A DNA stretch of 34,694 nucleotides from the NCBI GenBank assembly GCA_029265355.1, contig JAJUJL010000035.1, forward strand, positions 1 through 34,694, read 5' to 3'. The position numbers and the translations under genes were made by a program. Shown here one piece after another: positions 1,040 to 5,127 of this stretch; position 1 is the stretch's first letter, and every line of letters begins with the position of its first letter. The DNA comes from Chloroflexota bacterium (lineage in GTDB: Bacteria > Chloroflexota > Anaerolineae > Anaerolineales > UBA4823). The notes under the pieces were generated by a model. That model had not been told where the DNA came from and did no database searches. It saw only the letters and a list, made by a program, of their open reading frames with translations.

Positions 1040-4000
1040 TCACCTCAGCGTTTGAGCAACGGCTGCATCCAGTGTCAGTTCTTCTCCTCGCCGGATGATT
1101 GCCTGCCGTGCTTCTCCGGGCAGCTTATCGCCAAAGCTTTCCAGCACCGCCCTCGCCAGCGCTTTGGTCTCGTTCCAGCAGGCGGGGTGCTTGCAAAGAA
1201 AAGCTGCCAGCTCCACCGCTGGCCCGTAGTTGCCCTGCGCAGCGAACAGGCTGGCGAATCCGAGCAGAGAGATAAACTTGAGATCCTCACCGGTCCAACG
1301 CAGCGCATTGTCCATCGCCTGGCGCAGGCGCGTCTGGGCTTCTTCGAGACGCCCCAGCCCAACCAGCGCCCTTCCCAGGCCGGTCAGCGCGTAGGCTTGC
1401 CCCCAGATGCGGAAGTCACGCTGGTCGCGGTCGAAATGGGCCAACGCTCGCTCGAAGCGGGCGCGCCCTACTTCCCATTCTCCCTGGCTCAAGGCAAGAT
1501 CACCGAAGCCGCGCTCATAGTACCCCAGCATGATCGCATCCTGAGCCTTCTCGAACAGAGGCAGCGCCTTCTGGTACCAGGCGCGCGCCTGCTCGAAATC
1601 ACCCATCAGGCGATAAACCTCGCCCAGTTCCCAGGTGTGCCAGGCGATATCGTTTTGGTTGCGCGCTTCCAGCGAGGCTTCCAGGCTGCGTTTGCGCGTC
1701 TCAAGCGCATAATCCAGGCTCTTGTAGCGCGAGGCTGCCAGGCTTTCCCACGACAGGCTCACCCCAATCATCCGCCGGTTGCCGACCTTCTCATAGATCT
1801 TACGGCGTTCCTGGTAGGCGTGGAAAGCCTGTTCGGTTTGCCCCAGGTCCAGGTAGATGTTTGCCATCTCGTACCACACCCAACCCGCCCCCAGCAAGTC
1901 CTCCACTTGAAGCAGCAGCTCCAGCGCGGCGCGCTTATACTCGAGGCCCTGCTGGTATTCTCGCTTGCGCCAGGCCACATCTCCCAGCAACTGCAGCGCC
2001 GATCCCTGTTCATGAATCGCGCCAATTTCCCGGGTGATTGCCAGTATCTTGATGGCGTAGCGTTCTCTTAGCTCGAGCTGGGCTTCGCTGGCATAAGACT
2101 GGGAGAGAAAGAAGTATCCGAACGCACGTTCCCACGGGTCGAGCAGGTTCTCGATTTGCGTTAATGAGCCCTGTAGCTGCCTGGCGCCTTCATCGAAGTT
2201 TAGCAAGAGGTGAGCAAAGATCACCAGCAGATACCAGTATCCCATCTCCTGTTCAAGACGTTGCTCTTGCACCTGCTGCCTGAGTTTTTCCAGGCGCTTT
2301 CGAGGCTGGTCTTCATAATTTAGCCAGTTGAGCTCTGCGTAGATAACCGCAATTTCCAGGATGGCATGCTGTAAAATCTGCTGGCGATCCCCGGTCTCTG
2401 GCGCTGCGTTGCGCGCCCGTTTCGCCAGAACGATGAATTCCTCCACCCAGCCGCGGATCAAGCTGAAGTGCAACAGAGTGGGTAGCATCTCTTCGATTAG
2501 CAACTGGAAGCGCCTTTGATCTACCAGCCAATCCCAGGAGGCGCGGATGCCCTCCAGCTCTGCTGCGACAGCGTCCAGCGCCTCGACCTGCCCGTCGCTG
2601 CGCATCGCCCTGGCCTGCCTTCCCAGGAAATTGGCAAAATACTCGGCTAGCCGCTCCATGGCTGCATGCCAATCTGCCTCGTTGGCCTGCAAGCGTTCGT
2701 AGCCATACTGGCGCAGCAACGGGTGGAGCTGGAAGCGTCCCTTACCAGCCTGGCCCAGCCAGGATTTGTTTGCCAACGCCAACAGCGTACGCAGCGAGGC
2801 GCTGCTGACTGCCTGGGCTGCCTCTCGAGAAAATGCGCCTGGAAATACGCACAGGCTCAGGAAAACCTGTTGCTCGGTCTCATCTAACAGCTTCCAGGAA
2901 GACTCGAACACCGCTCGCAAGCTGTGTTGGCGCTCGGGGATATCAGGCGATTCGCTCGCCAGGAAATCCAGGCTATGGCGAATCTCGGCGGCGATCTCCG
3001 CTGGCGAGAGCAGTTCCAGCCAGGCGGCCGCAAGCTCGATGCCCAACGGCAGCCCTTCCACCAACCGGCAGATTTCCGCAGCGTGAACCAGAGAATGACT
3101 GTCCAACTGAAAGGTTGGCTGCACACGCCGAGCGCGCTCCACGAACAAGTTCAACCCGCTGAAGGATTGCAGCTCGGCATCGGGATGCTGCCATGCTGCC
3201 ACGGTCGAAGGCTCTGGGACGCGCATGCCCTTTACCTGGTAGAGTTGCTCGCCTTGCATGTTCAACCGCACACGCGAGGTGACCAGCAGTTTCACGCGCC
3301 TGGCGGTCTGCAGGATATCGGAGACCAGTTGAAGCGCGCCATTGCCTGCCAGGTGCTCGAAGTTGTCCAGGATAAGCAGCAGTTCTTTTTCCCACAGGTA
3401 CTCCAAAAGCTGCTGGCGTGGGCGCTCTTCCTCTTTGTAAAATGAAAAATCCAGCGCGTTAGCCACCGCCGGCACCAGCCCCTCCGCCGATTGCAAGGCG
3501 GCCAGCGGAGCAAACCAGACGCCATCTGGAAAATGTTCGGCAACCTCCGAGGCCGCCTGGATTGACAGTCGCGTCTTGCCCGTGCCACCAGGGCCGGTCA
3601 GCGTCACCAGGCGCTGCGCCGGGTCGAGCAGCAAGGCCTTGATCTGCTCCAGCTCGGATCGCCGCCCGATGAAGGGAGTGGGCAATGCCGGTAGATGCAA
3701 GTTTTGCTCCTCGGTGGGCCGGCTTGTTGTGTGCGAAACTTGTTGGGGTGGGGCGGCTGCAGCGCTGCTCTGGAGCAGTTGCTGGTAAAGCTGGTTTGTC
3801 TCGGGCTGCGGTGCAACACCCAGCTCGTCTTTGAGCATTTGTGTGCAATTTTCGTACTGGCGCAGCAGCGCAGCGCGATCGCCCATGGCGGCATACAGGC
3901 GCATCAAAGCGCGCTGGGCGCTCTCGTTCAGCGCGTCCAGGCTCAGCCAGCGCTGTGCGAAGGGCAGGGCGGTTTCGAAATCGCCGCTATCCAGCAAGGC

Positions 4001-4489
4001 TGCCACCAAACGCTCGCAGGCTCGCCCCAGTTCGCGCCGGAAATACTCGCTCTGCTGGCGCTGCCAGTCCTCGAACGGGGCAGCATCTGCCACGTAAAAC
4101 CCCCTCAGGAAGTCATCCTGGTACAACGTCAGCGCATGAACCAGCGCTTGTCGGTCGCCAGATGGCGAGCGGATAAGGGAGAGGAACTCGTCCGTGTCCA
4201 CCCACAGCTCTGGTCTCCGCTGAAGCGCAATGCTCTCTCGTTCCAGCCGCAACCACTCTTTGCCCAGGGAATGGTTCAGCTCCCACAGCGTTCGGCGCAG
4301 GTAAGCCAGGGCGCTGTTGCGATCGTAATCGGGCCACAGCAACGCAGCGAGCTGCTCGCGGGTGTGCGCCTTGGCAGTCACCGCCAGGTAAGCCAGCAGG
4401 GCGATGGTTTTGCGCCGGTCGGTATCCAGCGGGATGCCGTCCAACCTGACCTCAGGCGTGCCAAGTAAAACGATCTCCACTCGTGCCAT
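1040..4489 (-). CDS. BTAD/SARP-type STAND transcriptional regulator (SARP 1)
   Basis: A 1149-residue AfsR-like regulator. Residues 1-95 look like an OmpR-type winged helix, 97-242 like the bacterial transcriptional activation (BTAD) domain. An NB-ARC/STAND NTPase follows: Walker A GPGGTGKT at 299-306, Walker B ending in LILDNFEHL near 372-380, an LLVTSR sensor at 401-406 and GLPLGIELAA at 479-488. The C-terminal half is helical with TPR-like repeats to about residue 1120. In this family the TPRs sense a ligand or partner, nucleotide exchange switches the protein, and the N-terminus activates promoters at direct repeats. The ATG at 4489 is only six bases below a perfect TATAAT, so the mRNA may be leaderless. 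The divergent neighbour is a ParB-like-fold gene whose promoter carries repeats suited to this DNA-binding type. The inducing signal is unknown. Confidence 0.93.
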   Translation of the reverse strand: MARVEIVLLGTPEVRLDGIPLDTDRRKTIALLAYLAVTAKAHTREQLAALLWPDYDRNSALAYLRRTLWELNHSLGKEWLRLERESIALQRRPELWVDTDEFLSLIRSPSGDRQALVHALTLYQDDFLRGFYVADAAPFEDWQRQQSEYFRRELGRACERLVAALLDSGDFETALPFAQRWLSLDALNESAQRALMRLYAAMGDRAALLRQYENCTQMLKDELGVAPQPETNQLYQQLLQSSAAAAPPQQVSHTTSRPTEEQNLHLPALPTPFIGRRSELEQIKALLLDPAQRLVTLTGPGGTGKTRLSIQAASEVAEHFPDGVWFAPLAALQSAEGLVPAVANALDFSFYKEEERPRQQLLEYLWEKELLLILDNFEHLAGNGALQLVSDILQTARRVKLLVTSRVRLNMQGEQLYQVKGMRVPEPSTVAAWQHPDAELQSFSGLNLFVERARRVQPTFQLDSHSLVHAAEICRLVEGLPLGIELAAAWLELLSPAEIAAEIRHSLDFLASESPDIPERQHSLRAVFESSWKLLDETEQQVFLSLCVFPGAFSREAAQAVSSASLRTLLALANKSWLGQAGKGRFQLHPLLRQYGYERLQANEADWHAAMERLAEYFANFLGRQARAMRSDGQVEALDAVAAELEGIRASWDWLVDQRRFQLLIEEMLPTLLHFSLIRGWVEEFIVLAKRARNAAPETGDRQQILQHAILEIAVIYAELNWLNYEDQPRKRLEKLRQQVQEQRLEQEMGYWYLLVIFAHLLLNFDEGARQLQGSLTQIENLLDPWERAFGYFFLSQSYASEAQLELRERYAIKILAITREIGAIHEQGSALQLLGDVAWRKREYQQGLEYKRAALELLLQVEDLLGAGWVWYEMANIYLDLGQTEQAFHAYQERRKIYEKVGNRRMIGVSLSWESLAASRYKSLDYALETRKRSLEASLEARNQNDIAWHTWELGEVYRLMGDFEQARAWYQKALPLFEKAQDAIMLGYYERGFGDLALSQGEWEVGRARFERALAHFDRDQRDFRIWGQAYALTGLGRALVGLGRLEEAQTRLRQAMDNALRWTGEDLKFISLLGFASLFAAQGNYGPAVELAAFLCKHPACWNETKALARAVLESFGDKLPGEARQAIIRRGEELTLDAAVAQTLR

Positions 4490-4495
4490 GCGTAG

Positions 4496-4501
4496 ATTAT
4501 A
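4496..4501 (-). promoter_or_regulatory. -10 box of SARP 1, leaderless arrangement
   Basis: TATAAT on the minus strand ends six bases before the ATG at 4489, so transcription should start at or next to the start codon. No good -35 hexamer lies 16-18 bp upstream, which fits an activator-dependent or weak promoter. Confidence 0.6.
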
Positions 4502-4563
4502 TTACTTTCCAGGGGGAACGGCGCACTATCAAGGGGTGCAAACCAACCGCCAATTTTTCGCGA

Positions 4564-4638
4564 AACGCAAACCGAAACGCCCCCGCAACGCGCCCCGGAA
4601 CGCCTGGGAAACGCGCCCTTTTTATACTGTAAGCGTAA
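4564..4638 (+). promoter_or_regulatory. SARP-like direct-repeat operator and promoter of the ParB-like gene
   Basis: Five copies of AACGC begin at 4564, 4576, 4587, 4599 and 4610, steps of 12, 11, 12 and 11 bp, about one helical turn. The last copy ends eight bases before a -10-like TATACT (4623-4628). Known SARP promoters use short direct repeats at an 11-bp period just upstream of the -10 and overlapping the -35. Only the plus-strand gene is correctly placed downstream. The bases after the -10 form ACTGTAAGCGTAA (4626-4638), found again before the operon at 20073. Binding by SARP 1 is inferred from position. Confidence 0.6.
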
Positions 4639-4659
4639 CAGACACAAGGAGATGAGACA

Positions 4660-5127
4660 ATGTTGACCAACCTGCAGCTAACCACAATCGAACACTTCGC
4701 AACCAGCGCCAACGACAGTTCCCACGCTCGTCGCCTGGCAGCCAGGTCCTTCGACCGGCGATTCGCTGCAGGGAAACTGGCGCAGTTCTTCTCCAGGCTG
4801 AGCGGTCAGAGCAATCTACTGAAGGTTCTGGCGCACCAGCCCGAAGCCGCCAACCGCCGCACGGGCGCAACCCTGGATATCCCCATCGACCAGATCGTGG
4901 GCAGCGTCAGCCGCAGCCAGGACTTCGATGCGCACTTCAACCCGCTGCAGATCCATGACCGGGAGCGCTGGATCAGCGTGGCGGCTGCCCGCCGCAGCGG
5001 TGTGATCCTGCCAGCAGTCGAGCTGGTGCGCGGGAATGACGGCTACTACGTGCGCGACGGGCACCACCGCATCTCAGTAGCGAAGGCCATGGGGCAGGTC
5101 GTGATCGAAGCCCGGATCGTGAATTAA
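4660..5127 (+). CDS. Small ParB/sulfiredoxin-like-fold protein
   Basis: A 155-residue protein starting after AGGAG (spacing eight bases). The C-terminal half carries the ParB N-terminal or sulfiredoxin-like signature: IPIDQI (74-79), LPAVELV (117-123) and VRDGHHRISVAKAMG (131-145), where DGHHR corresponds to the substrate- or DNA-contacting loop. The N-terminal 70 residues are basic and helical. There is no separate HTH or dimerisation region as in true plasmid ParB, so a partition role is unlikely. Stand-alone proteins of this type are common in Chloroflexota, function unknown to me. It is divergent from SARP 1, has a candidate SARP operator, and ends at a strong shared terminator. Confidence 0.8.
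   Translation: MLTNLQLTTIEHFATSANDSSHARRLAARSFDRRFAAGKLAQFFSRLSGQSNLLKVLAHQPEAANRRTGATLDIPIDQIVGSVSRSQDFDAHFNPLQIHDRERWISVAAARRSGVILPAVELVRGNDGYYVRDGHHRISVAKAMGQVVIEARIVN

Follow-up and report, generated by a model that had tools for sequence, protein, structure and literature searches.

The SARP 1 / ParB-like locus

The window, which is the whole 34,694-nucleotide stretch of DNA that was analysed, contains a gene for a large SARP-type regulator (SARP 1) and a divergent gene for a small ParB-like protein. As the original prediction had it, an array of direct repeats lies between the SARP 1 start (ATG at 4489, reverse strand) and the start of the ParB-like gene (4660, forward strand). The features of the locus are as follows:

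1040..4489, reverse strand: SARP 1, 1149 aa, with a winged-helix DNA-binding domain, BTAD, NB-ARC/NACHT and TPR in an AfsR-like layout
4262..4312, reverse strand: recognition helix of SARP 1, residues 60–76, ALAYLRRTLWELNHSLG; R66 and E70 align with T88 and R92 of AfsR
4496..4501, reverse strand: TATAAT, SARP 1 promoter, ending 6 nt before the ATG at 4489
4562..4568, forward strand: box B5 (distal), GAAACGC, 12 bp before B4
4574..4580, forward strand: box B4, GAAACGC, 12 bp after B5; offset 34 peak in relatives
4585..4591, forward strand: box B3, GCAACGC, 11 bp after B4; offset 23 peak in relatives
4597..4603, forward strand: box B2, GGAACGC, 12 bp after B3 and over the −35 place; offset 11 peak in relatives
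4608..4614, forward strand: box B1, GAAACGC, 11 bp after B2 and 8 bp before the −10
4623..4628, forward strand: TATACT, predicted −10 element of the ParB-like gene; relatives have TANNNT at an equal distance
4646..4651, forward strand: AAGGAG, predicted ribosome-binding site of the ParB-like gene, upstream of its ATG at 4660
4660..5127, forward strand: ParB/Srx-fold protein, 155 aa, DGHHR motif; putative target gene of the array

All five predicted AACGC starts (4564, 4576, 4587, 4599 and 4610) were confirmed with spacings of 12, 11, 12 and 11 bp, as was the position of TATACT 8 bp past the last AACGC, which ends at 4614. The eight nucleotides between them (4615–4622) are GCCCTTTT. The longest phased AACGC chain in the 170 bp from 4490 to 4659 has five members, against a maximum of two in 20,000 dinucleotide-preserving shuffles (0 in 9,039, 1 in 10,865 and 2 in 96). 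AACGC occurs 50 times on the forward strand of the window, and three copies at 11/12-bp spacing are found at one other place in the 5.05 Mb genome, on contig C58; a reversed control pattern is also found once. A search of both strands of 4400–4700 gave no consensus −35/−10 promoter pair, and the intergenic DNA had no plasmid matches. A palindromic reading of the boxes was discarded: the arrangement CGAAAC...GTTTCG, seen by eye in L009 and L010, is absent from the window.

In SARP operators, repeats are 11 or 22 bp apart and the 3′ repeat lies 8 bp from the −10, according to the accessible text of a study of AfsR (PMC10936776). The array consists of heptameric direct repeats, its 3′ repeat is 8 bp from the −10, and B2 covers the −35 place, overlapping or replacing that element. 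Two of its repeat distances are 11 bp (B1–B2 and B3–B4) and two are 12 bp (B2–B3 and B4–B5), an 11, 12 order that recurs in relatives. The original prediction gave a period of 11–12 bp; the two values alternate along the array.

SARPs are known as antibiotic activators of Streptomyces. Searches with SARP 1 matched BTAD (1.9e-19), NB-ARC, NACHT and TPR domains; an OmpR-type winged helix followed by a BTAD is the arrangement of SARP regulators, and the NOD and TPR parts are those of the large SARP C-terminus. A profile made from 13 DNA-binding domains gave EmbR (5.7e-6) and AfsR (3.7e-5) as its first matches. When the profile was made from 13 SARP N-termini, AfsR structures were matched at 1.5e-15 to 4.6e-14, ranked under designed TPR proteins that match the TPR part of the profile. 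The SARP 1 DNA-binding domain used alone matched no SARP structure. Since SARP 1 reaches 95.9 of 1430 bits, far under the NCBIfam AfsR cut-off, it is not an AfsR equivalog. The correspondence of residues 66 and 70 to AfsR T88 and R92 was counted by hand along the HMMER alignment. As TATAAT stands only 6 nt before the ATG, the SARP 1 mRNA is probably leaderless. The same spacing is repeated in L043, L044, L045, L009 and L172, with close variants in L012 and L199. The region upstream of SARP 2 (L186) has no clear array by eye.

The ParB-like protein has no Pfam family at a threshold of 0.001. Its AlphaFold model (pLDDT = 91.3, 29-row alignment) presents a sulfiredoxin/ParB core and a long N-terminal helix, and the best PDB matches from Foldseek were sulfiredoxin, ParB, Noc, SerK and SbnI, two of them at E ≤ 0.001, with TM values of about 0.4 by query length. 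The protein therefore has the ParB/sulfiredoxin core, and the parS-binding HTH that a chromosome-partitioning ParB would have was not seen in the 155-aa model. From the model, a nucleotide-binding ParB/Srx module would be the likeliest activity. Paralogues of the protein (L011/L074, L017, L039 and L040) are encoded close to LuxR/MalT- or NarL-type regulators and show no clear array; this was judged by eye, with L074, L039 and L097 (the named copy of L040) also included in the scan described below. Given these neighbors, the small protein family appears to travel with several regulator types.

Conservation of the array in relatives

A search with the ParB-like protein gave a match at E ≤ 0.001 in 53 of 61 genomes. 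From GTDB genomes, the best 80 of 213 named ParB-like loci were kept, and these, together with the window, L009, L012 and L039, made up a set of 84 upstream regions of 330 bp each where present. The regions were scanned for three GRRACGS heptamers at 11/12 bp followed by a gap of 2–15 to TANNNT, with 150 shuffles per region. The GRRACGS consensus was written after the loci had been viewed and is fitted to the set; the order-wide and box-blind scans presented below are less biased. A divergent SARP lies upstream within about 650 bp at 25 of the 80 named loci, or at 28 loci when the window, L009 and L012 are included. In L051 and L079, a short ORF is seen by eye between the SARP and the ParB-like gene.

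A significant array (p ≤ 0.02) was found in 28 of the 84 regions, and in 24 of those 28 the best gap to TANNNT was 8 bp. The 24 comprise 19 loci beside a divergent SARP and 5 without one. The top score of the window was obtained against an overlapping TACTGT at a gap of 10, yet its array is 8 bp from TATACT. Similarly, L063 has its best gap (13) to a second hexamer and is also 8 bp from TAAACT, and the best array of L009 is elsewhere, with one box 8 bp before TAAACT. The array of L094, with a gap of 7, is probably a chance match. The actinobacterial and Levilinea loci had no significant array.

Loss of the repeats from relatives that keep both genes would have counted against the original prediction; most have not lost them, since a significant array at the 8-bp gap is kept at 19 of the 28 SARP-adjacent loci. 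Eight of the 28 (L009, L044, L046, L051, L075, L079, L083 and L095) miss p 0.02 at this gap, although the best gap is still 8 in L044, L046, L083 and L095, and the SARP-proximal stretch of L051 and L079 extends beyond the scanned 330 bp. The 56 scanned loci without an adjacent SARP contributed seven significant arrays, namely five with a best gap of 8 plus L063 and L094. The geometry of the array is conserved and is found at ParB-like genes both with and without a SARP neighbor.

The fold of the ParB-like protein and the position of its gene next to the boxes raise the question of whether the protein itself binds them, as ParB binds parS. There is very little to recommend this reading: parS is an inverted repeat and the boxes are direct repeats, the model offers just the Srx-like core and the long helix, 56 of the 84 scanned ParB-like loci are without a significant array, and the letters of the boxes track the SARP helix. 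It is the least probable of the explanations considered here.

Register and spacing

Register was measured as the mean box similarity (of 7) in regions anchored at B1 by hand, with L060, a near copy of L059, left out. In 14 loci with GAAACG boxes, similarity was 6.36 at offset 0, 4.93 at 11, 5.43 at 23 and 4.36 at 34. The value at offset 46, where the fifth box would lie, was 3.50 and no higher than those at 40 (3.36) and 56 (3.69); the fifth box is thus not general, and by eye it is present in the window, L043 and L061. Eight GAGACG loci peak at offsets 0, 11, 23 and 35, and nine GTAACG loci at 0, 11 and 23.

Across 400 genomes of the order, with all four 11/12 combinations allowed, 29 places were identified, two of which are near copies in one genome. 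The spacing was 12,11 in 20 of them, 11,11 in six, 12,12 in two and 11,12 in one, and nine of the 29 are directly upstream of a divergent SARP. As the reversed control gave 34 matches (hand count) against these 29, the scan is informative only through its spacing bias and its SARP context.

A further test was blind to the box letters and centred on 29 other SARPs from 29 genomes of the class, scoring the self-similarity of three heptamers. The gap and spacing combinations (9,11,12) and (8,11,12) ranked top with 7.72 and 7.59, compared to a mean of 5.59 (sd 0.53) over all 324 combinations; six of the 29 regions had no usable chain and were scored −1, and the best combination differs from locus to locus. 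A large GAAACG regulon was considered and rejected, as the two-box pattern is rarer than its reversed control in the 61 relatives.

Box letters and the recognition helix

The box letters differ among loci and include GAAACG, GAGACG, GGGACG, GTAACG and others. The SARP N-termini of the 28 SARP-adjacent ParB loci were aligned and 27 were assigned to box classes by eye (L096 masked; L076, with mixed boxes, counted as GAGACG). Of the 250 columns, just three (23, 66 and 70) give a perfect separation of the 13 GAAACG loci and the 8 GAGACG loci. GAAACG boxes (n = 13) accompany R66/E70, GAGACG boxes (n = 8) accompany N or Q at 66 with T or A at 70, and GGGACG/GGGGCG boxes (n = 3) accompany R66/R70. 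Two of the separating columns, 66 and 70, align with AfsR T88 and R92, which are the base-specific contacts of AfsR in the accessible text of PMC10936776. There are exceptions: loci with R66 have either A or G as the third box letter, L046 pairs Q66 with GTAACG, and L196 combines GGGACG with R66/A70.

A wider set was drawn from 64 SARP regions, of which 39 were kept at a self-similarity of at least 13, a criterion blind to the protein, and 25 were dropped. Box positions 5 and 6 hardly vary in these 39 pairs, being C and G. The strongest predictors of position 2 are columns 69 (shuffle z of 11.9) and 63 (8.4); column 69 corresponds to S91 of AfsR, which contacts a phosphate. Position 3 is predicted best by two columns from outside the helix (32 and 105), with column 70 third and column 66 eighth. 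In a partial Mantel analysis that controlled for the remainder of the domain, columns 63, 66 and 70, which were picked after the GAAACG/GAGACG separation, gave a correlation of 0.361, whereas 500 random sets of three columns from outside the helix reached at most 0.294; the best single columns were 67, 63 and 24.

The box letters follow the helix taken as a whole, and the alignments show no code of one residue to one base. This covariation points to the SARP as the reader of the boxes. Kinship among the SARPs also has to be considered. A tree made without the helix columns required 13 label changes (minimum possible 5, shuffled mean 25.9); it is poorly resolved, with 7 of its 42 inner branches starred, and has too few columns to count independent helix/box switches. 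By this comparison, relatedness among the SARPs is reflected in the helix and box classes too, and a single origin of each class is compatible with the tree.

Arrays without a neighboring SARP and other SARPs

Direct repeats are also used by OmpR-type regulators, and ten places in the genome of the window match the SARP DNA-binding profile. A different SARP or an OmpR/PhoB-type response regulator might therefore read the array, the adjacency of SARP 1 being due to chance or shared descent. The arrays at ParB-like genes without an adjacent SARP (L052, L054, L063, L064, L066 and L078) fit this reading, and kinship may explain part of the covariation. It is nonetheless considered unlikely, given that the box classes track the recognition helix of the adjacent SARP, that the motif YLRRTLWE is found in SARP 1 only among the ten places, and that the SARP on contig C60 has the helix ALRRTLSS and its own GTAACG boxes.

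The orphan arrays provide a further comparison, made in trans for the genomes of five of the seven (L066 and L094 left out). These genomes have 3 to 27 SARP-like places each, and 12 SARPs were compared in all. Genomes G016, G543, G544 and G545, with GAAACG/GCAACG boxes, each encode an unlinked SARP bearing YLRR(T/A)(L/I)WE, and G546, with GGGACG boxes, encodes an unlinked SARP with NLRRELSR. An unlinked SARP with a matching helix was thus found in five of the five genomes, which amount to about three independent lineages since the arrays of G543–G545 are near-identical, and this again disfavors another regulator. YLRRxLWE was absent from the 29 best-scoring SARPs taken one each from 29 genomes of the class.

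The location of the array between both genes would also allow an effect on the SARP promoter at 4496–4501, so that the array could serve mainly for autoregulation with the ParB-like gene as a bystander. Several observations make this very improbable. The fixed 8-bp distance is to the −10 directed toward the ParB-like gene, the arrays of the unlinked cases are found at that gene, and the 300 bp upstream of the matching SARPs L219–L222 contain no phased array by eye, with a lone AAACGG in L219.

Among the 12 SARPs compared, three with an ALRRTLS helix (L225, L226 and L228) have GTAACG boxes 8 bp from a −10-like hexamer, as seen by eye. A second SARP of the genome of the window (C60:6797–6838, L179/L182) likewise has the ALRRTLSS helix and its own divergent GTAACG array. 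A three-box GTTAACGC/GTAACGC array, 8 bp before a −10, is located upstream of a gene for a LivG-like ABC transporter ATPase at C58:11678–11719 (L178) and in genome G080 (L157); this gene is a likely target of a GTAACG-type SARP. The arrays on C35, C58 and C60 were considered as SARP 1 targets since they share the 12-11-8 arrangement, but their GTAACG/GTTAACG boxes better fit the C60 helix, and they were rejected. A third SARP (L183, C42) has two TTCACGA boxes 11 bp apart and 8 bp before TATCGT, seen by eye upstream of a divergent gene for a secreted-protein-like product.

Proposed mechanism

From the conserved geometry and the helix-box covariation, we infer with a probability of roughly 0.85 that the boxes are a SARP 1 binding site standing in for a −35 element, and that SARP 1 bound there activates the ParB/Srx-fold gene. 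The proposal of a SARP-type operator through which SARP 1 activates its divergent neighbor is in this way supported by comparison, with the −10 pointing at the ParB-like gene. SARP protomers would sit side by side on the boxes along one face of the DNA. The proximal pair B1–B2, 11 bp apart and 8 bp from TATACT, would substitute for the −35 element, and sigma region 4 would dock on the SARP dimer at B1–B2 as it does with AfsR at afsS. Counting upward from the −10, the spacings are 11, 12, 11 and 12 bp; B3–B4 may thus represent a second 11-bp site, 12 bp off the first, with B5 as a further half. B3–B4 and B5 would probably add cooperative binding of several protomers. The NB-ARC/TPR part may control SARP 1 activity as in AfsR, making activation of the gene at 4660 dependent on a signal.

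A more specific model is possible, if doubtful. Residues 63, 66, 69 and 70 could jointly set box positions 1–3, the ACG core being nearly fixed, and the operators could be tandems of 23-bp dimer units (11 + 12 bp) which, like a ruler, position a STAND-type oligomer with four or five protomers instead of a single dimer. If such a recognition code were true, it would make regulons predictable for a large number of regulators from a phylum whose members are mostly uncultured.

Comparison with known systems

A SARP profile at 1e-15 matches 103 of 150 genomes of the class. SARPs may thus be viewed as a widespread regulator family of the Chloroflexota, and sequence is enough to find their operators and sort them into classes. 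Natural differences among loci tie recognition-helix residues to base preference and offer a direct test of SARP site choice. In agreement with the original prediction, a literature search that left subscription journals mostly outside found no previously defined SARP operator from the Chloroflexota, and the same search returned nothing relevant on a SARP recognition code.

The closest known system is AfsR at afsS of Streptomyces coelicolor (PMC10936776), where, in the accessible text, two AfsR protomers occupy two 11-bp repeats centred at −29.5 and provide sigma region 4 with an alternative docking place. In both systems the −35 position is covered by direct repeats, the 3′-most of which lies 8 bp from the −10, and the regulator is a large SARP with NOD and TPR domains. 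The geometry of B1–B2 equals that of the two AfsR repeats, and residues T88 and R92 of AfsR correspond to the two helix positions by which GAAACG and GAGACG loci are told apart. The systems differ in that AfsR has two 11-bp repeats of another sequence where the window has five at alternating 11/12 bp, and in that the target is afsS rather than a ParB/Srx-fold protein.

In S. natalensis, as described in the available part of PMC5930380, PimR binds cooperatively to three heptamers with 4-nt spacers (11 bp). Its operator is also in the target promoter and near the SARP gene in several clusters; in contrast to the array, the main operator is off the −35, a secondary pair has a 10-bp period, and the target is a PAS-LuxR activator of an antibiotic cluster. 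The heptameric direct repeats of DnrI and ActII-ORF4 overlap the −35 in two or three copies, according to the accessible sections of a review (PMC10972967), which place them in actinomycete antibiotic clusters with spacers of 4–15 nt as a class; no link between helix residues and box letters was found in those sections. Compared to that review, the claimed likeness to Streptomyces SARP operators stands for the heptameric direct repeats and their place, and departs in the number of boxes, which is five instead of two or three. The ParB-like protein finds its counterpart in orphan proteins of the ParB/Srx fold (PMC12704722), which likewise have a ParB fold without belonging to a parAB operon; neither Chloroflex nor SARP occurs as a word in the main text of that source. 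The small protein gains a candidate control circuit, if not a function.

Compared to Streptomyces, the alternation of 11 and 12 bp, the presence of up to five boxes, the non-antibiotic target and a specificity that is partly readable from sequence are new. The layout is a variant of the known kind of SARP operator; both its phylum and its type of target are new.
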